64,000 nt of DNA, from contig JAQWXR010000030.1 in assembly GCA_029254375.1 (NCBI GenBank), positions 1-64,000 on the forward strand, in the 5' to 3' direction. Under the pieces are notes generated by a model. It was not told the origin of the DNA and did not search any database. It was given only the letters and a program-made list of their open reading frames with translations. Numbering within the stretch: the first letter of the stretch is position 1; each line of letters begins with the position of its first letter. Made by a program: the position numbers and the translations under genes. Below, piece by piece: positions 9,071-32,991 of this stretch. This stretch comes from Schleiferiaceae bacterium (GTDB taxonomy: Bacteria; Bacteroidota; Bacteroidia; Flavobacteriales; Schleiferiaceae).

Positions 9071-12001
9071 ATGGTAAAACGGTTGTGGCCCATGACGTTG
9101 GCTTTGCTTTCTTTCGGCTGGGGATCAGCGGAGTATAGGGAATCAAACCCTTTGGAAACGGGCAAGTACAGCGCCTGGATGGCCTCTGCGACGGTGGAGG
9201 ATCTGGCTGGTCAAATGATTATGGTTGCTGGCTACAGTCGCCAAGGCGAAAGCCACTTTCAACAGTTAGAGCGCTGGTCCGAAACCGGCCAAATTGGGGG
9301 TATTATTTGGATGCAAGGGGGCCCCGGTCGGCAACGAAATGCCATCGTACGAACCCAAATTGCGGCGATGTCCGGAATCGGCATTCCATTGCTAAATGCC
9401 CAAGATGCGGAGTGGGGCGCTTCAATGCGCTTGGATTCCCTTCAACGCTTGCCTTGGCCGCTCACCTTGGGAGCGACCCATAATGAGGAATTAGCTCGGG
9501 CCTACGGGAAATCTCTAGGCCAGGAATCAAGAGCTCTGGGGATACACGTCAACTTCAGCCCGGTAGTAGATCTGAACACCAATCCAGCCAATCCCATCAT
9601 TGGACAGCGTTCTTTGGGGTCAAATGTGGACCGCGTGAATCGCATGGCTACAAGCGAACTCTGGGGCTTGCAAAGCCAAGGAGTGATGGCCTGTGCCAAA
9701 CATTTTCCAGGACATGGCGACACAGATAGTGATAGCCACAAGACACTCCCCACGTTAAGTCATTCCCTGCAGACGCTCCGTCACCGGGAGATGCGCCCTT
9801 TTGAGAACGCGATTCGCAGTGGCGTAGGCGCTATCATGGTGGCGCATTTGAATATTCCTGCCCTCGACTCAACGGGCACGCCGGCCTCCATCTCCAAACC
9901 CATTGTGACCCACTGGTTGAGGGATACCTTGGGGTTTCAAGGGTTGATCTTCACCGATGCGCTCAACATGAAAGGTTTGGCGCAGGATTTGACTCCTGGG
10001 GAGATCGAAATTCAGGCCATAGAAGCAGGAAACGATGTGTTGCTCTTTGTGGCGGACCCCAAAGCAGCCGTGAAAGCTATAGCGCTCGCGGTTGAGCGCG
10101 GTCGTCTGACGCGCAGGCAATTAGAAGAGCATGTGGGCCGAATTCTGGCCGCTAAAGCCCGCTATGTGCCGGAGAATGGCGCTATTCCCTCTTCTACTGA
10201 AGCGCCTTTGCCTGATCGCCAAGCCTTGAACGCCGCCATTTACGCCGCTGCAGCCACCTTGGTTTACGATCCGGACTCTATGATTTCGCGAACATCACGT
10301 AGCTCAGTGGTCGAGGACATCCTGTTCATGGTGCCCATGGGCGAAGGGCAGGCAGATGCGGCGAGACTTCCAGGTATGCACCCTGTGGCCGATATCGATG
10401 CCTTTTTGGCATCGAGCCGAACTAGGCAAGAGGGCTTTACGAAGCCGCGCATTTGGATTTTTCATACCGCATCCTCCGCTAACCCGTGGAAGTCAGCTAA
10501 GCTACCTAGCGAAGTCCTCGCACAGGCCAAATCATGGAAGGCCAAAGGGGCGGATGTAGGCTTGGTTCATCTGGGAAATCCCTATGGCTTGCGCAATGTG
10601 GCAGAGGGCGGCCCGTTGGCTTCTGAAGAGATTCTTAGCACTTTTAATGCTTTGGTCCTTGGCTACGAGCACGTTTCCGATGCGATCCTAGCGATACAAG
10701 GTGCGTTGGAGTCCTTCAGCGCGCGCAGGTTGCCGGGGCGCATTCCCGTTTCGGGCCTGAATTTCAATCCCGCCATGCCCGTGACGACGATGGGTGAAGC
10801 TGGCTTTCAAGCCGACCTCATTAAAAATATTGATTTTATTGTGGATGAGGGCTTGCGCAATGGCGCCTACCCCGGCTGCCAGGTTTTCTTGGCGCGCCAT
10901 GGAAAAGTGGTCTTGAATGGCGTCTGGGGCACGCTGGATGGCACCAGCGCCGTAGAGCCGACGGACCGCTATGACCTAGCCAGTGTGACAAAAATTCTCG
11001 CTTCGGTCCCATTGATCATGGATTACATGGAGGGCTCTGGAGGTCCAGCTGCCTTTCTGGGAAGCCCTATGGCTGAATTTCTTCCCGAGCTTGCACATTC
11101 CCCCGTGGGCGCCCTAGAAATGGGCGACATCCTATCCCATCAGTCGGGCTTGCCTCCATGGATTCCTTTCTACCAATCCTATCTATGGAAAGATGGAAAT
11201 CTGGACAATCGGTATTTTCGAAGAATTCGGAGTGAGAACTTCCCCAACCAAGTGGCCATCGGTGTATATAGCCGGGCAGATTTGAGGGATTCGGTGCTAG
11301 CGCGCATCGCGGAGGCAGATCTAGGCGTCAAGAAGTATAAATACAGCGACTTGGGCTACTACATGCATCAACGCTGGCTGGAACGCTACTACGGAGCGGC
11401 CATGGACGAGGTGCTGGAATCCCAGTGGTACGGACCCATGGGCTTGGATTTAGAATACAATCCGTTACAAAAGGCCATGAACAAAGGCCAAGCTGGGGGT
11501 ATGGAAATAATACACATTGCTCCAACAGAGAACGATCAGATGTTCCGACGTCAACTGATACGAGGCACCGTGCATGACCAAGGTGCAGCCCTCTTAGGTG
11601 GGGTAGCGGGCCACGCAGGTCTTTTTGGTTCAGCCAAAGATGTTGGCTCTATGATGCAATTCTTCTTACAAGGGGGGCGATGGAATGGCTACCAGTACCT
11701 GGAGCCGGAGACGATTAAGGCCTTTACAGCCTGCTATGCCTGCGACGCGGGCAATCGTCGTGGTCTGGGTTTTGACCGTCCTCAAACCTCCGGTCCAGGT
11801 CCGACTTGTGGCTGTGTCAGCCCTTTGAGCTTTGGGCACACCGGATTTACCGGTACTTTTGCCTGGGCAGACCCCGAAACTGGCACCGTGCTTGTTTTTG
11901 TCTCCAACCGAGTGTACCCTGATGCAAACAACCCTCTACTTAGCAAGCTGGATATCCGAACCCGTATTCAAGAAGCCGTCCAGGTGGCTTTGGTCGATTA
12001 G
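9071..12001 (+). CDS. GH3-family glycosidase fused to a serine beta-lactamase-fold domain
   Basis: This 976-residue exported protein joins two enzymes. After a signal-like N-terminus (LWPMTLALLSFGWG) comes a glycoside hydrolase family 3 domain of NagZ type, with KHFPGHGDTDSDSHKTLP near residue 209 (catalytic His loop) and IFTDALNMKGL near residue 293 (nucleophile Asp). A C-terminal class C beta-lactamase-like domain starts near residue 575, with the SVTK tetrad near 637, YSD near 757 and HTG near 921. NagZ-type enzymes remove beta-N-acetylglucosamine from peptidoglycan fragments; the second domain is typical of D,D-peptidases and esterases. A joint role in muropeptide turnover is inference. 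This fusion is known in Bacteroidota. The start was chosen by signal peptide, promoter spacing and the divergent neighbour. Confidence 0.9.
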   Translation: MVKRLWPMTLALLSFGWGSAEYRESNPLETGKYSAWMASATVEDLAGQMIMVAGYSRQGESHFQQLERWSETGQIGGIIWMQGGPGRQRNAIVRTQIAAMSGIGIPLLNAQDAEWGASMRLDSLQRLPWPLTLGATHNEELARAYGKSLGQESRALGIHVNFSPVVDLNTNPANPIIGQRSLGSNVDRVNRMATSELWGLQSQGVMACAKHFPGHGDTDSDSHKTLPTLSHSLQTLRHREMRPFENAIRSGVGAIMVAHLNIPALDSTGTPASISKPIVTHWLRDTLGFQGLIFTDALNMKGLAQDLTPGEIEIQAIEAGNDVLLFVADPKAAVKAIALAVERGRLTRRQLEEHVGRILAAKARYVPENGAIPSSTEAPLPDRQALNAAIYAAAATLVYDPDSMISRTSRSSVVEDILFMVPMGEGQADAARLPGMHPVADIDAFLASSRTRQEGFTKPRIWIFHTASSANPWKSAKLPSEVLAQAKSWKAKGADVGLVHLGNPYGLRNVAEGGPLASEEILSTFNALVLGYEHVSDAILAIQGALESFSARRLPGRIPVSGLNFNPAMPVTTMGEAGFQADLIKNIDFIVDEGLRNGAYPGCQVFLARHGKVVLNGVWGTLDGTSAVEPTDRYDLASVTKILASVPLIMDYMEGSGGPAAFLGSPMAEFLPELAHSPVGALEMGDILSHQSGLPPWIPFYQSYLWKDGNLDNRYFRRIRSENFPNQVAIGVYSRADLRDSVLARIAEADLGVKKYKYSDLGYYMHQRWLERYYGAAMDEVLESQWYGPMGLDLEYNPLQKAMNKGQAGGMEIIHIAPTENDQMFRRQLIRGTVHDQGAALLGGVAGHAGLFGSAKDVGSMMQFFLQGGRWNGYQYLEPETIKAFTACYACDAGNRRGLGFDRPQTSGPGPTCGCVSPLSFGHTGFTGTFAWADPETGTVLVFVSNRVYPDANNPLLSKLDIRTRIQEAVQVALVD

Positions 12002-12512
12002 CCTCCTTTTTTTGGTACTGTCCATGCAAGCCCAAGTTCAGCAGGCGGCCATTGGATGGCGAACGGACTCCACCTATGTGAGCTATTTTGGAAACGGGAA
12101 ACCTCGCAGCATCGTGCATTTCAAAGATGGATTATCGGAAGGAGCGGCATTTGAGTTTCACGCCTCAGGGCAAGTGTTGATTTATAACGAATGGCTCGAG
12201 GGTCAAAAGCACGGGGAGGAAAAGGAATTTGATCAGATTGGTCGCCTAACCCATGTCACAAATTGGCGCTATGGCCGACTTCACGGTGAAGAGCGCAATT
12301 ACTACGTTACAAGCGTGATTCAGAGCCGAATTCCATGGGTTAATAATCAGAAACATGGAACGGCCCTTTGGTACCATGACAATGGACAGGTCGCGGTCGA
12401 ATTTCCATATGAGCACGGAGAAATTCAAGGCATAGCGACATATTATACGGATCAAGGCGAGGTAGAAAAGACCTTGACGTATCGCCACAACGAAGTGATC
12501 GAATCAAAATGA
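11922..12512 (+). CDS. YwqK/MORN-like repeat protein, probably exported
   Basis: This protein of about 196 residues has an N-terminal hydrophobic segment (WLWSISLLFLVLSMQA) that looks like a signal peptide. At least four degenerate repeats of about 23 residues follow, with the pattern YFGNGKPRSIVHFKDGLSEG and YHDNGQVAVEFPYEHGEIQG. Repeats of this type occur in proteins named YwqK-family antitoxin, a label that need not describe function. The start is uncertain: the ATG at 11922 lies 80 bases inside the GH3 fusion gene, and no later ATG leaves a complete signal peptide. The stop overlaps the bshA start (ATGA). Confidence 0.72.
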   Translation: MQTTLYLASWISEPVFKKPSRWLWSISLLFLVLSMQAQVQQAAIGWRTDSTYVSYFGNGKPRSIVHFKDGLSEGAAFEFHASGQVLIYNEWLEGQKHGEEKEFDQIGRLTHVTNWRYGRLHGEERNYYVTSVIQSRIPWVNNQKHGTALWYHDNGQVAVEFPYEHGEIQGIATYYTDQGEVEKTLTYRHNEVIESK

Positions 12513-13633
12513 GAATAGGGGTAGTATGCCATCCAACATATGGTGGTTCTGGGGTGATGGCCACCGAATTGGCAAATCATCTGGGGAATCAAGGGCATGA
12601 AATGCATGTGATCTCGTATGCGCAACCTGTCCGCTTGGATCCATTCAATTTACAAGTTCATTTTCACGAGGTTCAGGTTCATGACTATCCTTTATTTCTC
12701 TATCAGCCCTACGAATTGGCTTTGTCTTCGGCCATGGTCGAAACCGTTCGAAAGGAGCGCCTGGAGATACTCCATGTCCATTACGCCATTCCTCATGCGT
12801 ATGCGGCTTTTATGGCGAGACAAATTTTAGCCGATGAGGGAATTCATATTCCGGTGGTAACCACCTTGCACGGTACAGACATCACCCTGGTGGGTCGACT
12901 TCCAGCCTATAAGCCTGCGGTCTGTTTTTCAATTAACCACTCTTCAGCCGTCACGGCGGTATCTGAAAGCCTCCGTTTAGAAACGATCCAGCAGTTTGAT
13001 ATTCAACGCGACATTTTGGTGATACCCAATTTTGTCTTCTTACAGCGCTATAGCCGCGGAGATGCGGCTGCACGGAGACGCTTTGCCGAGCCAGAGGAGT
13101 CGATTTTGTGCCATGTAAGTAACTTTCGCAAAGTAAAGCGCGTATTGGATGTAGTGTTGATTTTTGCCGAAGTTCGAAAGGAGCTACCCTCCAAATTAGT
13201 CATGGTGGGTGATGGTCCGGACCGGGCTGCGGCCGAAACTTTGGTCGCTAATCTCGGAATTCAAGAAGACGTCTTATTTGTGGGTAAGACTTCCGAAGTA
13301 GAGCGGATTTTGGGCGTCTCAGATTTATTCTTATTGCCCTCCGAAACCGAAAGTTTTGGTTTAGCCGCCCTCGAGGCGATGGCTTCAGGTGTTCCTGTGG
13401 TCGCATCCCGCGTAGGAGGCTTACCGGAAGTCGTTAGCCACGGTCTGACCGGTTATCTGGAGTCAGTTGGTGATGTGGCTAGAATGTCTCAGCGTGCCAT
13501 CGATATTCTTTCGAATGAAGCTACCCATGCAAAGTTCGCTGAGCAAGCCCTTCAAGCAGCGCATCACTTTTCCATGGAGCAAATTGGACAGACGTATCTC
13601 GACCTGTATCAGCAATTGATCGATGGGAAGTAA
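12509..13633 (+). CDS. bshA: N-acetyl-alpha-D-glucosaminyl L-malate synthase BshA
   Basis: BshA is the GT4 glycosyltransferase that joins UDP-GlcNAc and L-malate in the first step of bacillithiol synthesis. The 374-residue protein begins MRIGVVCHPTYGGSGVMATE, characteristic of BshA, and continues with HVHYAIPHA, TTLHGTDITLVG and the GT4 C-terminal LPSETESFGLAALEAMASG near residue 275 with its E-x7-E. The start overlaps the previous gene by ATGA. bshB and bshC are not in this window. A ytxJ homologue at 40.3 kb supports bacillithiol use by this organism. Confidence 0.95.
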   Translation: MRIGVVCHPTYGGSGVMATELANHLGNQGHEMHVISYAQPVRLDPFNLQVHFHEVQVHDYPLFLYQPYELALSSAMVETVRKERLEILHVHYAIPHAYAAFMARQILADEGIHIPVVTTLHGTDITLVGRLPAYKPAVCFSINHSSAVTAVSESLRLETIQQFDIQRDILVIPNFVFLQRYSRGDAAARRRFAEPEESILCHVSNFRKVKRVLDVVLIFAEVRKELPSKLVMVGDGPDRAAAETLVANLGIQEDVLFVGKTSEVERILGVSDLFLLPSETESFGLAALEAMASGVPVVASRVGGLPEVVSHGLTGYLESVGDVARMSQRAIDILSNEATHAKFAEQALQAAHHFSMEQIGQTYLDLYQQLIDGK

Positions 13634-24642: not shown

Positions 24643-24650
24643 TACCTTTG
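24643..24650 (+). promoter_or_regulatory. Candidate -7 box of the nqr operon
   Basis: TACCTTTG matches TAnnTTTG, 36 bases before the nqrA ATG at 24687, giving a leader of about 30 bases. A weak TTTT at 24621-24624 is 18 bases upstream. It is the only good box ahead of the six nqr genes. Confidence 0.55.
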
Positions 24651-24686
24651 CAGCGAATTTTTTTCGAGACCATTTTAACCTTGGAC

Positions 24687-26027
24687 ATGTCGAAAACCCA
24701 TACCATCCGCAAAGGCTTGAACCTACCCATGGTAGGAGCACCCTCTACGCAGGTGGAGGATTTCCCCCTCGGGACTTCCTTCGCAGTAAATCCAGATGAA
24801 TTTGTGGGCGTTGCCCCAAAACTTTCCGTTAAAGAAGGAGACACGGTGAAAGCTGGTCAAGCCATTTTCTTTGACAAAAAGGATGCCCGCATCCAAATTA
24901 CCTCCCCGGTGAGCGGAACCGTTCGCGCCATTGTGCGTGGAGCCAAACGCCGTTTGGATCAAATTCAGATAGAAGCGGATGCGACCACGAGCTACCACGA
25001 TTTTGGCAAAGGATTACCCAAGGATGCGGAAGCAGCGAAAGCCACCCTGCTGGCTTCGGGAGCATGGACCCTTTTGGAAATGCGCCCATTTGCACGTGTG
25101 GCCAACCCAGACGATGCGCCCAAAGCCATTTTTGTCAATGGAATGTCCAGCGCGCCTTTTGCCACGGAGGCTTCCATCGCCATCGCGGGCCGTGAAGAAG
25201 CCTTCACCGCTGGCTTGAAAGTACTTAATCTTCTGGCTCCCAAAACAGTTTTGAGCCTCCACGCCGAAGAGAGCGCTCCTGTCTTGACGCAAGCGACTGG
25301 TGTGGAAATCCATCGTTTTTCGGGAAAGCATCCCGCAGGAAACACTTCGGTGCACATTGCCGCGCTGTCTCCATTGAACAAAGGAGAAGTTATTTGGGCG
25401 ATTTCTGCACAAGATGTCGCGATTATAGGTGATCTGTTCCTAAAAGGGCATTATTGCTTAGATCGCATCCTCTCGGTGGCGGGTAGTGGAATCAATGCTC
25501 CTCACTACTTCCGCCTGCGTGGTGGTATGAACTTGGCCACTTTCTTTGCGGCCAATGGCAAAAAAGGCGCCTACCGCTACATTTCTGGATCGGTTCTAAG
25601 CGGACAGAGCATTGGTGCTGAGGGCTATCTCCAGTTGAACTCCCAACAGCTAACGGTCATTCCTGAGGGTCAAGGCACCGACTTCATGGGTTGGGTCCTT
25701 CCCGGCTTTGGGAAATTTTCGAATAGCCGCACCTTCATGAGCTGGTTAAGCCCAGGGAAGAAATACGATCTAACTACCAAGTTGCACGGTGAAGAACGGG
25801 CATTTGTAGTGACGGGTCAGTACGATCAGGTCTTCCCATTTGATATCTATCCCAACCAATTGCTCAAAGCTGTATGGGCCAAAGATTTGGAAAGAATGGA
25901 AGCTCTGGGCATATATGAGTTAGCCCCTGAGGACTTTGCCCTGTGCGAAGTCATTTGTACGTCCAAGCAGCCATTGCAGCACATGGTGCGCGAGGCTTTG
26001 GATCTCCTTCATACCGAAATGAACTAA
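24687..26027 (+). CDS. nqrA: Na+-translocating NADH:quinone reductase subunit A
   Basis: NqrA is a soluble subunit of Na+-NQR, the pump that oxidises NADH, reduces quinone and exports sodium. The 446-residue protein opens IRKGLNLPMVGAPS, the NqrA signature, followed by a barrel-sandwich-like part with LSVKEGDTVKAGQAIFFDK near residue 50 and GTVRAIVRGAKRRLDQIQI. VLPGFGKFSNSRTFMSWL is near residue 345. The start was set at 24687 by family alignment; the in-frame ATG at 24648 falls inside the promoter box. It is the first gene of nqrABCDEF. Confidence 0.95.
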   Translation: MSKTHTIRKGLNLPMVGAPSTQVEDFPLGTSFAVNPDEFVGVAPKLSVKEGDTVKAGQAIFFDKKDARIQITSPVSGTVRAIVRGAKRRLDQIQIEADATTSYHDFGKGLPKDAEAAKATLLASGAWTLLEMRPFARVANPDDAPKAIFVNGMSSAPFATEASIAIAGREEAFTAGLKVLNLLAPKTVLSLHAEESAPVLTQATGVEIHRFSGKHPAGNTSVHIAALSPLNKGEVIWAISAQDVAIIGDLFLKGHYCLDRILSVAGSGINAPHYFRLRGGMNLATFFAANGKKGAYRYISGSVLSGQSIGAEGYLQLNSQQLTVIPEGQGTDFMGWVLPGFGKFSNSRTFMSWLSPGKKYDLTTKLHGEERAFVVTGQYDQVFPFDIYPNQLLKAVWAKDLERMEALGIYELAPEDFALCEVICTSKQPLQHMVREALDLLHTEMN

Positions 26028-26042
26028 CTGCGGAAGAAGACT

Positions 26043-27239
26043 ATGAAATTCATTCAAAATATTTTTGACGCGACCCGCCCTGCGGTCACAACAGGAAAGC
26101 TGAAGCCCTTATATCCATTGTACAATGCTTTGGAGACGATGATGTTCGTTCCTGATCATAATGCACACAGTGGCGCTCACGTTCGCGATGCGATTGACTT
26201 GAAGCGTACCATGGTGACGGTTATTTTCGCCTTGGTTCCCGCGTTACTTTTCGGCATTTTTAACGGTGGATACCAACACTACAAGGCCTTGGGCCTACTC
26301 AATGAAGCCATGGGTTGGGGACAATTCTTCACCTTGGACAATTTTATTTTTGGGGCTTGGAAAATTGTTCCGATGATTGCGGTGACCTACATGGCTGGTT
26401 TGGGCGTGGAGATCTACTTCGCAGGCATCAACAAGCATCCCGTAAACGAAGGCTTCTTGGTCTCAGGCCTCTTGATTCCGATGACTATGCCGATCGACAT
26501 GCCTTTGTGGATGGTGGCCATTTCAACCATCTTCGCCGTCCTGATTGGCAAAGAGGTTTTTGGCGGCACGGGAATGAACATACTGAACCCAGCCTTAACA
26601 GCGCGGGCCTTTGCCTTCTTCGCTTATCCTTCATTTATGTCGGGTGACAAGGTGTGGGTCAATACTACGGTTGAAGCAGGTCAAACTGTGGTAGATGGAT
26701 TCTCTGGTGCCACGGCCTTGGGGCAATATGCGACCACGGGTTCGACGAGCTTCGGCGCATGGGATGCCTTTCTTGGGCTCATTCCCGGTTCTATTGGAGA
26801 AACGAGCACCCTACTCATCGTCTTAGGTGGCGTTTATCTCATTGCAACGGGTATCGGCTCGTGGAAGATTATGCTGGGCTCTACCCTGGGAGCAGTAGCC
26901 ATGGGATTGCTGTTCAACTGGGCGGCTCCTCACATGATTACCGAATCGCAGCAGCAGTTCATGAGCATTCCTTTTTACTACCATCTCGTTTTTGGTAGCT
27001 GGGCATTTGCTACCATCTTTATGGCAACGGATCCGGTGTCTGCCGCTCACACTGAGCGTGGTAAGTGGATTTATGGCTTCCTAGTTGGCTTTTTGGGTAT
27101 CATGATCCGGGTATTCAACCCAGCCTACCCTGAGGGCATGATGCTTGCTATCCTCTTTATGAACGTAATGGCTCCGATGATTGACCATTATGTGGTTAAT
27201 GCGAATATTCAACAGCGTCTCAAGCGCTCAAAAGCCTAA
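26043..27239 (+). CDS. nqrB: Na+-translocating NADH:quinone reductase subunit B
   Basis: NqrB is a large membrane subunit holding riboflavin and covalent FMN, and lies on the sodium path. The 398-residue protein has about ten hydrophobic segments. The FMN attachment motif is visible as DGFSGATALGQ near residue 220, where the Thr is flavinylated by ApbE. GGTGMNILNPALTARAF and FMATDPVSAAHTERGKWIYG are family signatures. It starts 15 bases after nqrA and ends 3 bases before nqrC. Confidence 0.95.
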   Translation: MKFIQNIFDATRPAVTTGKLKPLYPLYNALETMMFVPDHNAHSGAHVRDAIDLKRTMVTVIFALVPALLFGIFNGGYQHYKALGLLNEAMGWGQFFTLDNFIFGAWKIVPMIAVTYMAGLGVEIYFAGINKHPVNEGFLVSGLLIPMTMPIDMPLWMVAISTIFAVLIGKEVFGGTGMNILNPALTARAFAFFAYPSFMSGDKVWVNTTVEAGQTVVDGFSGATALGQYATTGSTSFGAWDAFLGLIPGSIGETSTLLIVLGGVYLIATGIGSWKIMLGSTLGAVAMGLLFNWAAPHMITESQQQFMSIPFYYHLVFGSWAFATIFMATDPVSAAHTERGKWIYGFLVGFLGIMIRVFNPAYPEGMMLAILFMNVMAPMIDHYVVNANIQQRLKRSKA

Positions 27240-27242
27240 GTC

Positions 27243-27992
27243 ATGAATATCAATTCGAACAAATACACGTATGTCTTCGCGGTGGTCATGGTGGTCCTCG
27301 TGGCAACCCTGCTCTCTATTGCTGCGACGTCCTTGAAACCCTTTCAAGACAAGAACGTTGAACTCGAGAAGAAGTCCGACATCCTTCGCTCCATTGGGAT
27401 TGAAGGTGAGGATGTCGAAAGTCTTTTTGACCAATACATCCAAGAGCAGTTGGTCATTCAAAATGGCGAAGCCATCGAATCTGAGATCACGGCATTTGAT
27501 ATCGACATGGCATCGGCTGTCGCGCTTGCAGCGGATAAGCGTCAGGTACCTCTTTTCAAAGCAGCAGTTGAAGGAAACACCTACTATGTTCTGCCCGTTC
27601 GTGGCAAAGGACTTTGGGGTCCCATCTGGGGCTATGTGGCCCTGAAGGGCGATGGCAATACCATCTTAGGTGCCACTTTTGGTCACAAAACAGAAACTCC
27701 CGGTTTGGGCGCGGAAATCGCTACGCCCATCTTCCAGGATCAGTTCCCAGGGAAGAAACTCTTCACTACGACCTATGAAGGTATCGAAGTCCGCAAAGGG
27801 GATGCTTCCGGGGATCAGCAGGTAGACGGAATCTCCGGTGGAACCATCACATCTGTCGGGGTTCAAGACATGATCTCTGATTGCTTGAAGCCCTACAAAC
27901 CCTATTTAATGAGCATCGCCGATGCTGCTTTAGTCCCTGCAGTTCAACTGGCGCCTATTGTTGATTCCACTCTAATTACGGCTGCGTTATGA
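27243..27992 (+). CDS. nqrC: Na+-translocating NADH:quinone reductase subunit C
   Basis: NqrC carries a second covalent FMN on the periplasmic side. The 249-residue protein has one N-terminal membrane segment (YVFAVVMVVLVATLLSIAATSL), then a periplasmic FMN-binding domain. The ApbE target motif is DGISGGTITSVGVQDM near residue 198. GLWGPIWGYVAL and FGHKTETPGLGAEI are family signatures. The stop overlaps nqrD by ATGA. The C-terminal 20 residues, rich in Ala, Val and Pro, extend beyond the conserved domain. Confidence 0.95.
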   Translation: MNINSNKYTYVFAVVMVVLVATLLSIAATSLKPFQDKNVELEKKSDILRSIGIEGEDVESLFDQYIQEQLVIQNGEAIESEITAFDIDMASAVALAADKRQVPLFKAAVEGNTYYVLPVRGKGLWGPIWGYVALKGDGNTILGATFGHKTETPGLGAEIATPIFQDQFPGKKLFTTTYEGIEVRKGDASGDQQVDGISGGTITSVGVQDMISDCLKPYKPYLMSIADAALVPAVQLAPIVDSTLITAAL

Positions 27993-28651
27993 GCAATGAA
28001 CAGAAACCCGCACAAGAAGGATTGTTCTCTAAGAAGAACCGCCGTCTTCTGATCGACCCAATGAACGCCAATAACCCAGTTACCGTTCAGGTATTGGGAA
28101 TTTGTAGTGCTTTAGCGATCACCGTCAAATTGAAGCCCGCCATCGTCATGGGCTTGTCCGTGATCGTGGTAACTACGATGGCGAACTTGATCACCTCCTT
28201 GATGCGCAATATGATTCCGAATCGTATCCGTATCATCGTCCAGCTTGTCGTGGTAGCCGCCTTGGTTATCCTCGTGGACCAGGTACTTAAGGCCTTCGTA
28301 TATGACGTATCCAAGCAGCTGTCCGTATTTGTGGGCCTGATCATCACCAACTGTATCATCATGGGTCGAATTGAGGCCTTCTCTCTCGGGAATACCCCGT
28401 GGAAGTCGGTACTTGACGGTTTGGGTAATGGTGCGGCCTATGGCGGCATCCTGATTATTGTCGCTTTCTTCCGAGAATTGCTCGGAAACGGGACACTATT
28501 GGACTACCCAGTGGTCGAATGGATGGGATTGTACGATGTGGGTTACAAGAACAACGGAATGATGTTGTTGCCTCCCATGGCCTTGATTGTGGTGGCCATG
28601 ATCATCTGGGTGCAACGCGCCAAGACTCCTTCATTGATTGAAAAAGACTAA
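27989..28651 (+). CDS. nqrD: Na+-translocating NADH:quinone reductase subunit D
   Basis: NqrD is an integral membrane subunit that pairs with NqrE around the intramembrane iron centre. The 220-residue protein has six hydrophobic segments. The two cysteines that are cluster ligands in the family are visible in GICSALAITVKLKPA near residue 37 and TNCIIMGRIEAFSLGN near residue 119. The start overlaps nqrC by four bases, with nqrE 12 bases downstream. Confidence 0.95.
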   Translation: MSNEQKPAQEGLFSKKNRRLLIDPMNANNPVTVQVLGICSALAITVKLKPAIVMGLSVIVVTTMANLITSLMRNMIPNRIRIIVQLVVVAALVILVDQVLKAFVYDVSKQLSVFVGLIITNCIIMGRIEAFSLGNTPWKSVLDGLGNGAAYGGILIIVAFFRELLGNGTLLDYPVVEWMGLYDVGYKNNGMMLLPPMALIVVAMIIWVQRAKTPSLIEKD

Positions 28652-28663
28652 GCCATAGAAGCC

Positions 28664-29281
28664 ATGCAAGATTTACTCAACATTTTTGTCAAGAGCATCT
28701 TTATTGACAACATGATTTTTGCCTACTTCCTAGGCATGTGTTCGTACTTGGCCGTTTCCAAAACGGTAAAGACGGCCATGGGCCTTGGATTGGCCGTGAC
28801 CTTTGTATTGACCATCACATTGCCGGTGAACTATCTCTTGGAGACCAAGGTTCTAAAGCAAGGAGCACTAGCTTGGCTAGATCCTTCTTTTGCTGATCTG
28901 GATTTGAGCTTCCTAAGCTTCATCATGTTTATCGCCGTGATTGCGGCCATGGTCCAATTGGTAGAAATGGTTGTAGAAAAATTTGCTCCTGCATTGTACT
29001 CTGCCTTGGGAATCTTCTTGCCTCTAATCGCGGTCAACTGTTCCATTTTGGGCGGTTCTCTTTTCATGCAAGAGCGTGCCTATGCGAACATTGGCCAAGC
29101 TACGGTGTTTGGATTTGGGTCGGGTATTGGTTGGTTGTTGGCGATTGTGGCCATCGCAGCCATTCGCGAGCGATTGAAGTATAGCCATGTGCCTGCCCCA
29201 TTGCGCGGTCTTGGTATCACGTTTATCATTACTGGCTTGATGGGCATGGCCTTTATGAGCTTCATGGGAATTAAACTCTAA
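28664..29281 (+). CDS. nqrE: Na+-translocating NADH:quinone reductase subunit E
   Basis: NqrE is the inverted structural partner of NqrD. The 205-residue protein has six hydrophobic segments and the two matching cysteines in [14 protein letters not shown] near residue 26 and [18 protein letters not shown] near residue 126. With NqrD these hold a single iron or small cluster in the membrane. It sits 12 bases after nqrD and 15 before nqrF. Confidence 0.95.
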
Positions 29282-29296
29282 TTTGACATAGAAACT

Positions 29297-30604
29297 ATGT
29301 TTTTAGCTGCTTCATCTACGGTTCTTCTGCTGAGCATTCTGGTGTTCACCTTGGTTATTTTGGCTTTGGTTACCATTTTATTGCAAGCCAAAGCCCGTCT
29401 GAGCCCATCGGGCCCTGTTAAACTTGAAATCAATGGTGACACCGTTGAGGTGGAATCTGGAAGTACGCTTCTTGGCACCTTGAGCAACCAAAAAATCTTC
29501 CTTCCCTCAGCCTGTGGCGGAGGCGGTACCTGCGGAATGTGTAAGTGCCAAATCATGGATGGCGGTGGTGAAATTTTACCCACCGAAACCGGATTCTTTA
29601 ATCGCAAGCAAATTGCTGACAACTGGCGCTTGGGATGCCAAGTGAAGGTGAAGAATGACATGAAGGTTAAAGTACCTGATGAGATTTTTGGCATCAAGAA
29701 GTGGGAGTGCGAAGTGGTTTCGAACTACAACGTGGCCTCCTTCATTAAAGAATTCGTCGTGAAATTGCCCGAAGGAGAAAGTCTCGATTTTCTTGCAGGC
29801 GGATACATTCAGGTGGATGTTCCATCTATCGATGTCGACTTCAAGAATATGGACGTCACAGCCCATCCGCGCTTGGGCAAGAAGCCGGATGAATTCCAAT
29901 CTGAATGGGACAAATTTGGCCTTTGGAATCTCAAGATGAGCAATCCAGAGCCTCTTTTCCGTGCCTATTCCATGGCCAACCACCCAGCGGAAGGCAACAT
30001 CATCATGTTAAACATCCGTATTGCGACCCCACCATGGGATCGCTCCAAAAATGCTTGGATGGACGTCAACCCTGGCGTATGTTCTTCTTACGTGTTTGAT
30101 TTGAAACCTGGAGACAAGGTGACGATTTCAGGGCCTTATGGCGAGTTCCACATTAAGGATACGGAGTCAGAGATGATTTACATCGGCGGTGGCGCAGGTA
30201 TGGCCCCCATGCGTTCGCATTTATTCCACTTGTTTCACACCTTGAAGACAGGCCGAAAAGTATCCTATTGGTACGGTGGTCGCTCACGTCGCGAGCTGTT
30301 CTACATCGATGACTTTTTGAACATCGAGAAGGAATTCCCCAACTTTAAGTTCAATATGGTACTTTCTGAGCCTCTACCCGAGGACAATTGGACCGCTAAA
30401 TCTAGCATGGATGATTCAGGCGACGGTTTCGTAGGCTTCGTACACCAGGCCTTGATTGACAACTATCTGTCTAAGCACGATTCACCCGAAGATATTGAGT
30501 ACTATTTCTGTGGCCCGCCCATGATGAATGCAGCGGTATTGAAGATGGTCGATGATCTTGGAGTTCCACCAGAAAATGTCGCCTTTGATGACTTTGGAGG
30601 CTAA
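29297..30604 (+). CDS. nqrF: Na+-translocating NADH:quinone reductase subunit F
   Basis: NqrF is the NADH entry subunit. The 435-residue protein has an N-terminal membrane segment (residues 8-30), a [2Fe-2S] domain with [15 protein letters not shown] near residue 75 and LGCQ for the fourth Cys, then FAD- and NADH-binding domains with RAYSMANHP near residue 225, [15 protein letters not shown] near residue 296 and [13 protein letters not shown] near the end. It ends the structural operon. A strong hairpin begins 13 bases after its stop, within the overlapping apbE reading frame. Confidence 0.95.
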
Positions 30605-31625
30605 ATTTTTAAAAGAAAAAAAAGCGGCTTTGGCCGCTTTTTTTGGCGCCTTGTTGTCGATAGTTGGGTGTCAAAGTTCAGAGAATGCCCTCTACTTTGA
30701 AGGTCAAGCACAAGCAACCACCTTCCACATCACTGTATATGGCGATGCAAATGTTGAGGTGGATGATATTCATCGATGGTTGGCCGACTACAACCATGTG
30801 GCTTCCCCTTGGGACAGCGCCTCGCTGATTTCTGCATTAAATGGACCTGGGATGCTAGCCCCGGACCATCCTTACTTATGCGAAATGTTGAAACTTGGCC
30901 GGGAGCTTTACCACCTGACAGACGGGGTTTTGGATCCCACCTTGGGCCCCATAATTGAAGCCTGGGGCTTCGGGGTCGGGCCTGCTACCCTGAGTCCAGG
31001 GGATACTGCGGGGCTTAGCCAAGTCATGTTGGCTGTAGGCGATACAGCGTGGTTCCGATTGGCAAATGATTGTACGGGGCATTCTGCCATCAAAATGTAC
31101 CTAGAACGGCAGGATATGGAGCTGAATTTCATGAGCTTCTCCCAAGGCCATTCCGTGGATATTGTTGTGGATTCCCTGAAAGCCCGCGGGGCCACGGCGG
31201 CCTTCGTAGAAATAGGAGGGGAGTTGCGTACGTTTGGCGTCAAGCCGAATGGAACGCCTTATGCAGTCGGTATTGAATTGCCCCAAGAAGGAAAGACTTC
31301 AGGTTTTGCCTACACCTTGACCATCGAAGAACGAGCCCTGGCCACCAGCGGAAACTACCGGAATTTCAGAGTAGATGCCCGCACCGGCGGGCACTACGGG
31401 CACACTTTGGATGCTAGAACGGGTTGGCCGATTAAGACGGATGTCCTGAGTGCAACCATGCTTGGCCCTACGTGTGCCACCGCCGATGGAATGGCCACTG
31501 CGGCGATGGCGATGGGACTCGAAAAAACGAAACAGTGGCTTAGTATGCACCCAGAATGGGATGCCCTGCTAATCTACGGTAATGAAAAGGATGGCCTGCA
31601 GGTCTGGTCTTCGTTGGACTTGTGA
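30588..31625 (+). CDS. apbE: FAD:protein FMN transferase (ApbE) lipoprotein
   Basis: ApbE attaches FMN covalently to Thr in the SG(A/G)T motifs of NqrB and NqrC outside the inner membrane. The protein of about 345 residues has a lipoprotein signal ending in LLSIVGC (lipid-modified Cys28) and family motifs [12 protein letters not shown] near residue 212, [25 protein letters not shown] and [16 protein letters not shown] with the metal-binding Asp. I chose the ATG at 30588, which overlaps nqrF by 17 bases, because it gives a normal signal peptide. The terminator-like hairpin at 30617-30644 lies inside this reading frame and encodes residues 11-19, so expression may be set by read-through. Confidence 0.9.
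30617..30644 (+). terminator. Intrinsic terminator after nqrF, inside the apbE 5' coding region
   Basis: A perfect 12-bp inverted repeat, seven A then GCGGC paired with GCCGC then seven T, encloses the loop TTTG. It has the exact form of an intrinsic terminator and sits 13 bases after the nqrF stop. The same bases encode KKAALAAFF of the ApbE signal peptide. It probably reduces, rather than blocks, apbE expression. Confidence 0.75.
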
Positions 31626-31713: not shown

Positions 31714-31926
31714 TTACTCCTCCGCGCCTTCCTTCTGGCATTGCTGTTCGGGAAGTGCTCCGCAGAGAGAACAAGCATCCCCATCCTTGTTTAAAAATGG
31801 AGAATTGGAAGCGCAGGTTCCGGCGAATTCACCATCTTTTTTGGCCCATATTTTCACCGCCATTCCAAGCAGGCCGAGGCCCAAAAGCACGACGGCGACT
31901 AGAATGAGTTTTAGCGATACAATCAT
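31714..31926 (-). CDS. Small Cys-rich membrane protein, NqrM-like candidate
   Basis: This 70-residue protein has one N-terminal membrane helix (about residues 4-26), then four cysteines: C38 in FAGTCAS, C52 and C55 in ACSLC, and C63. NqrM (DUF539), needed to insert the iron centre between NqrD and NqrE, has the same plan: one membrane helix, a G-S/T-C motif just after it, and further paired cysteines. Placement beside nqrABCDEF-apbE, although on the opposite strand, supports the link. Similar Bacteroidota proteins are usually annotated only as membrane or secreted protein. The NqrM role is inference. The start is fixed by a TACCTTTG box 4 bases upstream. Confidence 0.6.
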   Translation of the reverse strand: MIVSLKLILVAVVLLGLGLLGMAVKIWAKKDGEFAGTCASNSPFLNKDGDACSLCGALPEQQCQKEGAEE

Positions 31927-31971: not shown

Positions 31972-32991
31972 TCACCCGATAAGGTTAACTTCAGCCTCTA
32001 AGTCGATTCCGAAAAGTTCTGAGACACTGGCTTGCACGTGTTGTGCATATGCCCAAATTTCCGGACCGCTTGCCCCCCCATAATTCACCAAAACAAGGGC
32101 TTGCCGGGCGTGCATTCCCACATTGCCTACACGCTTTCCCTTCCAACCAGCTTGTTCAATTAGCCAACCGGCAGCGACCTTCACTGTGCCATTGGCCTGA
32201 GGGTACTGGGGGATCTCCGGATAACGCTGAGCCAATGCGCTGACTTGAGCCGAAGGGAGGGCGGGGTTTTTGAAAAAACTCCCTGAATTTCCCAAAACTT
32301 TTGGATCCGGAAGTTTGCTTTGTCGGATGGCCATGACCGCATCCGAAATGCTTTCCACGGAAGGCTGCAGACCCCGAGATGACAATTCTTCCTGGATGGC
32401 TCCGTAGGTGGTTTGAAAAGTGTGATTTCGCTTGGTCAAGCGGAAGGTCACTGAGAGAATCACTCCTTGGCCTTTAAGTCGATTTTTGAAGACACTATCT
32501 CGGTAGCTAAAGCCACAATCCACCGCATCCATGGGATGAATTTCACCATTTTCCCAGTCAAAAAAACGCAGGCAATCAAAGGAATCGGATAATTCTACCC
32601 CATAGGCTCCTATGTTTTGGACGGGTGCGGCGCCCACAAGTCCAGGAATAAGTGAAAGATTCTGAAGGCCGCTCCAATCCTTCCCTACACAGAATCGAAC
32701 CGTTTCATGCCATGATTCCCCAGCAGCGACCTCCAACCACACGTGGTCTTCCGTTTCGCGAATGACTTTCCGACCTTTCCACGCAATCCGAGCCGTAGTC
32801 CCCGGGACATCGGCGCATAAGAGCATGTTGCTGCCTCCGCCTAGAAGCAATCGTTGTTGCCTCAAACCTTCAGGATGCTGCGCATAGTGAGCTACATCGG
32901 CTTCTGTTTCCAAATGCACTAAGCGCTCCGCCTTGGCATCAATGCCAAAGGTGTTGTAAGGGGCCAGTGAGACATTTGATTCCCAGATCAT
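31972..32991 (-). CDS. murB: UDP-N-acetylmuramate dehydrogenase MurB
   Basis: MurB reduces UDP-GlcNAc-enolpyruvate to UDP-MurNAc with NADPH and FAD, a cytoplasmic step of peptidoglycan synthesis. The 339-residue protein has the N-terminal NTFGIDAKAERLV, the FAD site LLGGGSNML near residue 48, LSLIPGLVGAAPVQNIGAYG near residue 112, CGFSYRDSVFK and GNSGSFFKNP with the catalytic Ser, plus a C-terminal substrate-binding domain. This is the longer type I (E. coli-like) form. The start overlaps the aminotransferase stop by ATGA. Confidence 0.95.
   Translation of the reverse strand: MIWESNVSLAPYNTFGIDAKAERLVHLETEADVAHYAQHPEGLRQQRLLLGGGSNMLLCADVPGTTARIAWKGRKVIRETEDHVWLEVAAGESWHETVRFCVGKDWSGLQNLSLIPGLVGAAPVQNIGAYGVELSDSFDCLRFFDWENGEIHPMDAVDCGFSYRDSVFKNRLKGQGVILSVTFRLTKRNHTFQTTYGAIQEELSSRGLQPSVESISDAVMAIRQSKLPDPKVLGNSGSFFKNPALPSAQVSALAQRYPEIPQYPQANGTVKVAAGWLIEQAGWKGKRVGNVGMHARQALVLVNYGGASGPEIWAYAQHVQASVSELFGIDLEAEVNLIG

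Follow-up and report, generated by a model that had tools for sequence, protein, structure and literature searches.

A divergent NqrM-type protein encoded beside nqrABCDEF-apbE is a probable NQR biogenesis factor of Bacteroidota

The window, by which we mean the whole 64,000-nucleotide stretch of Schleiferiaceae DNA analysed here, carries on its forward strand the genes nqrA to nqrF followed by apbE, and on its reverse strand a small NqrM-like gene (31714..31926) that converges on them. Family profiles identify nqrA (24648..26027; TIGR01936, 425.9 bits, above the cut-off), nqrD (27989..28651; TIGR01939, 287.5 bits, above the cut-off), nqrE (28664..29281; TIGR01940, 311.4 bits, above the cut-off) and nqrF (29297..30604; TIGR01941, 598.7 bits). 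The two remaining genes are named from position and from the gene order at other loci: nqrB (26043..27239) is the open reading frame between nqrA and nqrC, and nqrC (27243..27992) that between nqrB and nqrD; a tblastn search with the nqrC product recovers the corresponding neighbour, in the order seen here, at 29 of 95 loci. The TTG start of nqrA was assigned mechanically, and an ATG 13 codons downstream is the likelier start. The FMN transferase gene apbE (30552..31625; PF02424, E = 9.7e-58) has a reading frame that overlaps the end of nqrF, and its annotated start codon is provisional. Between the end of apbE at 31625 and the stop codon of the convergent small gene lie 88 bp; on the other side, 45 bp upstream of the small gene and on the same strand, is murB (31972..32991; NF000755, 425 bits). 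The two reverse-strand genes are perhaps co-transcribed in this window, where a scan for promoters and terminators found nothing beyond chance.

Read from an ATG, the small gene encodes a protein of 70 residues, MIVSLKLILVAVVLLGLGLLGMAVKIWAKKDGEFAGTCASNSPFLNKDGDACSLCGALPEQQCQKEGAEE, with the landmarks G36-T37-C38, C52-x2-C55-G56 and C63; the assignment draws on the open reading frame and its translation, on conserved columns, on an AlphaFold2 model and on co-occurrence with nqrE. The model, built from a 29-row alignment (mean pLDDT of 71.5), predicts a single helix spanning residues 2–27, mostly at high confidence, followed by an unordered tail in which the cysteine site has no order. The first-pass annotation had proposed an NqrM-type factor from this plan, that is, 70 residues, one helix, cysteines at 38, 52, 55 and 63 and a GTC motif just past the helix, and each of these elements is confirmed by reading frame, translation and model. 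It was also correct that the four ligand cysteines of the NqrD/NqrE centre are intact in the window, namely C39 and C122 of NqrD and C26 and C126 of NqrE.

The gene belongs to a well-populated family. At least 195 relatives were confirmed in genome contigs, the best 80 of which were kept, and every one of the 41 genomes in the window's own family has the gene, which rules out a chance open reading frame. Among 25 chosen relatives, the invariant residues are G21, K25, K29, K30, G32, F34, G36, T37, C38, A39, S40, P43, G49, C52, C55, G56 and C63. The pattern GTCAS..C..CG..C recurs at fixed spacing in 93 of 95 loci, a set that includes a few genomes counted twice through two collections, and the other two loci keep the same four cysteines with a longer last gap. 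The ligand cysteines of the proposed partners are equally constant, being retained in 22 of the 22 NqrE and 22 of the 22 NqrD sequences compared. No match to the 70-residue protein was found in the plasmid collection, and a sequence search for solved structures returned none of NqrM or of the window protein, the best matches being unrelated chains. Two genomes carry the gene in duplicate: G010 has copies at 11793-11984 and 13206-13328 of contig 13, the second a shorter match, and G631 has two full-length copies, on contigs 4 and 2.

The distribution of the gene across the phylum follows that of the NQR. The same 395 genomes were searched with a profile of the gene (A1), for nqrE (TIGR01940 above the cut-off) and with PF04400, the NqrM family model. 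A1 matches 55 genomes and nqrE is found in 67; the two sets share 53 genomes. Both A1 matches without nqrE (G369, E = 0.007; G409, E = 0.004) are weak, lack the cysteines and on reading do not have the motif; they are chance matches, and convincing matches among the 328 genomes without nqrE number zero. Wide occurrence of the gene in genomes that have no nqr, which would have spoken against an NQR function, is thus not what the sample contains, all 53 convincing carriers among the 395 having nqrE. In 50 of these 53 the arrangement G[ST]C...C-x1/2-C...C is kept, and in three (G387, G391 and G270) the protein is cysteine-poor. Of 14 genomes with nqrE and no A1 match, 12 fall in a single family (f18) and the others are G278, which nevertheless carries the cysteine-poor form, and G308. 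The expectation that genomes with nqr and no classical NqrM would carry the gene is accordingly borne out in 54 of 67 (50 with four cysteines, 4 cysteine-poor) and fails in the other 13, 12 of which encode a different cysteine-rich protein by nqr. In G308, nqrE lies on contig 25 (around 12467-13072), with none of the three small protein types considered here found; its genus-mates G055, G335 and G363 are absent from the list of genomes with nqrE, so this nqrE may be on a stray contig.

This association is not mere linkage, because in only 15 of the 50 four-cysteine genomes do the gene and nqrE share a contig at a distance of up to 10 kb (2.4-6.2 kb apart); the other 35 show no such proximity, and nqrE is always present. 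Within one genus (g21), three genomes (G124, G194 and G329) have both nqrE and the gene, and at least 14 others have neither. In a second sample, 296 genomes of the window's order scored with profile A4 at E <= 1e-4 and nqrE above its cut-off, both genes occur in 142, the gene only in 8, nqrE only in 15 and neither in 131 (Fisher p = 2e-55, a value that, the genomes being related, is not a probability of independence). The 23 discordant genomes range in completeness from 58 to 98%, and several are incomplete. At completeness of 95% or above there are four: G480, G482 and G492, with nqrE only, which count against a strict requirement for the gene unless they reflect assembly gaps, and G455 (96%), with the gene only, as a weak match (E = 6.5e-7). 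In the window's own family nqrE is found in 40 of 41 genomes, the exception (G040) being 92% complete and divided into 340 contigs. A contrasting search for rnfB matched 2 genomes out of 45, and each of these has nqrE. Because the gene is almost confined to NQR-making genomes in the phylum, it very probably encodes the missing assembly helper of this enzyme; the specificity for the NQR rests on co-occurrence, and the role in assembly is inferred.

Gene neighbourhoods point the same way. Fractions from the 80 named loci are not unbiased, because these are the best-matching loci and their contigs are often short; in the DNA available, at least one nqr gene is present at 31 of the 80, and apbE lies less than 2 kb from the gene at 38, convergent in every case. 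The six loci whose titles name Balneola or Balneolaceae (L003, L004, L007, L009, L013 and L041) all show a convergent apbE with nqr beyond it and no murB. The gene murB is directly upstream at 12 of the 80 loci, and is missing from that place in 22 of the 31 nqr-linked ones; on these frequencies the recurrent partner is nqr-apbE and not murB. These counts bear on the suggestion that the protein serves metal or redox chemistry in general, as a FixS-like, FeoB-associated or zinc-ribbon protein, and stands beside nqr by chance or belongs to a murB operon. FixS/CcoS and FeoB-associated cysteine-rich proteins are small single-helix membrane proteins found in metalloenzyme or metal-transport settings, and the window protein gives sub-threshold Pfam matches to FixS (12.5 bits; cut-off of 23.1), FeoB_associated (12.3 bits; cut-off of 27) and a zinc ribbon (13.8 bits; cut-off of 27), while in the window itself murB is a close upstream neighbour. 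All of these matches fall far under their cut-offs, however, those to FixS and FeoB_associated being weak and driven by the helix, and the gene tracks nqrE even where the two are unlinked. We therefore reject a murB-operon protein, given the rarity of that arrangement, and regard a general metal or redox function as very improbable.

Known family models do not recognize the protein. The first-pass annotation had proposed a search with the DUF539/NqrM profile, and this was negative: Pfam-A gives the window protein no PF04400 match up to E 10, and 0 of 23 diverse relatives match PF04400 up to E 1. Against NCBIfam the window protein is likewise unmatched, and the 23 relatives give scattered chance matches only. 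The PF04400 search does recover authentic family members, matching all three of the plasmid records searched in which nqrM is annotated, and three authentic NqrMs score 30.9, 24.0 and 80.4 bits against a curated cut-off of 22 bits. With no match to the profile, the window protein is not formally a member of PF04400. The same model finds no separate, classical NqrM. There are 0 matches in the window's own genome, which is 88.5% complete, and among the 395 genomes of the phylum none has a match above the cut-off, 20 having sub-threshold rows, so we reject a genuine PF04400 NqrM at another place in the genome, or in the phylum, in agreement with the earlier proposal.

To describe the relation to NqrM we used 12 proteobacterial NqrMs from plasmid-collection records (set A2), located either through tblastn searches that used annotated nqrMs as queries or from their position beside apbE-nqr; six of the 12 are named nqrM in their records, four have no annotation at the site and two are labelled 'hypothetical'. 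NqrM (PF04400, formerly DUF539) and the window-type protein share a length of around 70-80 residues, one N-terminal helix, a G-[ST]-C motif just after it, a later CxC or CxxC and a last cysteine, as well as occurrence with nqr and encoding near apbE-nqr. They differ in that NqrM has GSCGG, invariant across the 12, whereas the window protein has GTCAS, with A-S or similar in its relatives; in the CG that is conserved after the CxxC of the window type; and in that the window-type gene frequently lies at a great distance from nqr or on the other strand. The later cysteine pair of the NqrMs is itself variable, C-x-x-C in seven alphaproteobacterial proteins and C-x-C in the five others, and a GTC-type protein with C-x-C occurs in G336, a genome of the window's order.

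Aligned by hhalign, profile A4 and set A2 give a probability of 95.8%, with helix, GTC/GSC and CxxC in the same order and register; the control with the helix alone gives 94.0% and that with the tail alone 0.3%. When the NqrM tail columns are permuted, the score falls to a mean of 38.0 (sd 2.2), and one of 150 decoys reaches the real 46.06; when the NqrM helix is permuted, the mean is 18.0 and the maximum of 150 is 27.3. The 12 NqrMs receive 12.1-24.1 bits from the HMM of the gene, above the 95th percentile of 600 tail-shuffled decoys (11.9 bits) in all 12 cases and above the 99th (14.9 bits) in 10, and one decoy, at the maximum of 25.3 bits, outscores every real NqrM. The similarity is carried mostly by the helix, the cysteine tail adding a modest signal that is better than that of decoys. 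One reading of these results is that the protein is an independent analogue of NqrM, a single-helix cysteine protein recruited to the same job and not a homologue. It would account for the silence of PF04400 and for a tail-only alignment that is not significant, and another family shows a third, apparently unrelated tail type (described below). Shared ancestry better explains why the elements keep the same order and register and why 149 of the 150 tail-permuted decoys score below the real alignment; the loss of score on permuting the NqrM helix likewise argues against an analogue, and we consider recruitment of this kind the less likely origin. Homology to NqrM, suggested by the whole layout more than by the tail, is on these sequence comparisons probable, not proven, and the protein works like NqrM with high likelihood while falling outside PF04400 as it is defined.

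A different possibility is that the Bacteroidota NQR keeps the protein permanently as a small accessory subunit, with a stabilizing or electron-transfer role, and that it is not a maturation factor. Co-occurrence and linkage would look the same for such a subunit, and the strong conservation of the tail beyond its cysteines (K25, K29, K30, G32, F34 and P43) would suit one. The plan and profile of the protein, however, fit a known maturation factor, and its gene is often apart from nqr (not within 10 kb in 35 of the 50 four-cysteine genomes), on the opposite strand or elsewhere, which would be unusual for a stoichiometric subunit. In the part of the source available, moreover, the NQR of Prevotella bryantii is modelled with six subunits (PMC10739449). 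An accessory subunit is thus an improbable identity for the protein, and an NqrM-type helper in assembly is the reading that we carry forward.

Natural variants qualify how such a helper might act. In four genomes (G270, G391, G387 and G278; loci L209-L212, respectively), relatives of the gene have NTH or NGH in place of GTC, C38 being replaced by histidine, and retain one or two cysteines in the tail. A profile of three cysteine-poor members (A5) also picks out the four-cysteine loci of ten further genomes, at identical positions, which makes the two forms one family; it matches 0 of 21 nqrE-negative genomes. The ligand cysteines of NqrD and NqrE are intact in all four cysteine-poor genomes, which weakens any mechanism that needs iron on all four cysteines of the helper. 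In G387 we also observed a rubredoxin-like domain (PF21349; 55.5 bits) at the N terminus of NqrC, ahead of its membrane helix and FMN-binding domain (L191, 7683-8495); the same fusion is present in a Parabacteroides distasonis record of the plasmid collection (L168, 7526-8338; 54.3 bits). The fusion possibly gives an NQR subunit an additional iron site; as a replacement for the lost cysteines it was rejected, the NqrC proteins of the cysteine-poor genomes G270, G391 and G278 being without it.

Family f18, from the same phylum, has another small protein beside nqr. Each of its 12 genomes with nqrE encodes, at a distance of 2.5-3.6 kb from that gene, a one-helix protein bearing the motif CCGGGxC and further cysteine or histidine residues, placed after apbE where apbE was found (L197-L208, one locus per genome; it was also read at L146, L147, L148 and L192-L196). 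It resembles the window protein in being small, with one helix and a cysteine-rich tail, and in occurring in nqr genomes; it was absent from all 22 nqrE-negative genomes and from all 5 further nqrE genomes searched. The alignment with the window gene covers the helix only; that with NqrM reaches 93.3% over the helix and CGG, with HMM scores inside the decoy range, and one member searched against Pfam and NCBIfam received no name. CCGGGxC appears to be a third tail type, apparently unrelated to the other two. Together these variants admit a further reading, to which we give limited credence: the NQR would employ three or more assembly proteins (NqrM, the GTC type and the CCGGGxC type) that are interchangeable or have diverged deeply, and the core job of the GTC type, given that its cysteine-poor members accompany intact NQR genes in four genomes, would not be four-cysteine iron donation and might instead be a membrane-helix function in the assembly or insertion of NqrD/NqrE, with the cysteines optional.

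Our preferred interpretation is that the gene is probably a divergent, Bacteroidota-type NqrM that takes part in NQR biogenesis, likely bringing iron to NqrD/NqrE while ApbE attaches FMN. We place it at the cluster-assembly step of NqrD/NqrE because of the role in NQR maturation that Kostyrko et al. are said to have described for NqrM in Vibrio and Klebsiella. As proposed, a membrane protein with a single helix would present four conserved cysteines on its tail, on what is predicted from Lys 29-30 after the helix to be the cytoplasmic side. These cysteines would most likely bind iron or a nascent cluster, which could then pass to the four cysteines of NqrD and NqrE, ApbE meanwhile attaching FMN. 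In the hhalign alignment, C38 pairs with the cysteine of the NqrM GSC motif, and this first cysteine is reportedly essential in NqrM of V. harveyi. According to the portions of the literature available, current models place between NqrD and NqrE a [2Fe-2S] cluster with two cysteine ligands from each subunit (PMC10739449), NqrM seems to be required for insertion of that centre in Vibrio (PMC12174285), and NqrM has been predicted to deliver Fe (PMC6209661).

In open-licence PMC text, as far as it was available, the second maturation factor of the NQR is described from proteobacteria only. We found no published description of the Bacteroidota-type gene in that same body of text, to which neither the primary report on NqrM (J Bacteriol 198:655) nor the study of nqrM in V. 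cholerae belongs; the available parts of papers on the Prevotella NQR contain no mention of NqrM or of maturation that we could find, and the terms searched are absent from PMC6560451. The Na+-NQR itself, according to the part of one study available, is thought to have originated in the Chlorobi/Bacteroidetes group (PMC4014512). Naming its assembly factor in these organisms would fill a missing annotation model and would aid production of the Bacteroidota NQR in a foreign host. It also raises a testable question, namely whether the tail supplies iron or the helix assembles NqrD/NqrE, for which the cysteine-poor and CCGGGxC versions are natural variants.
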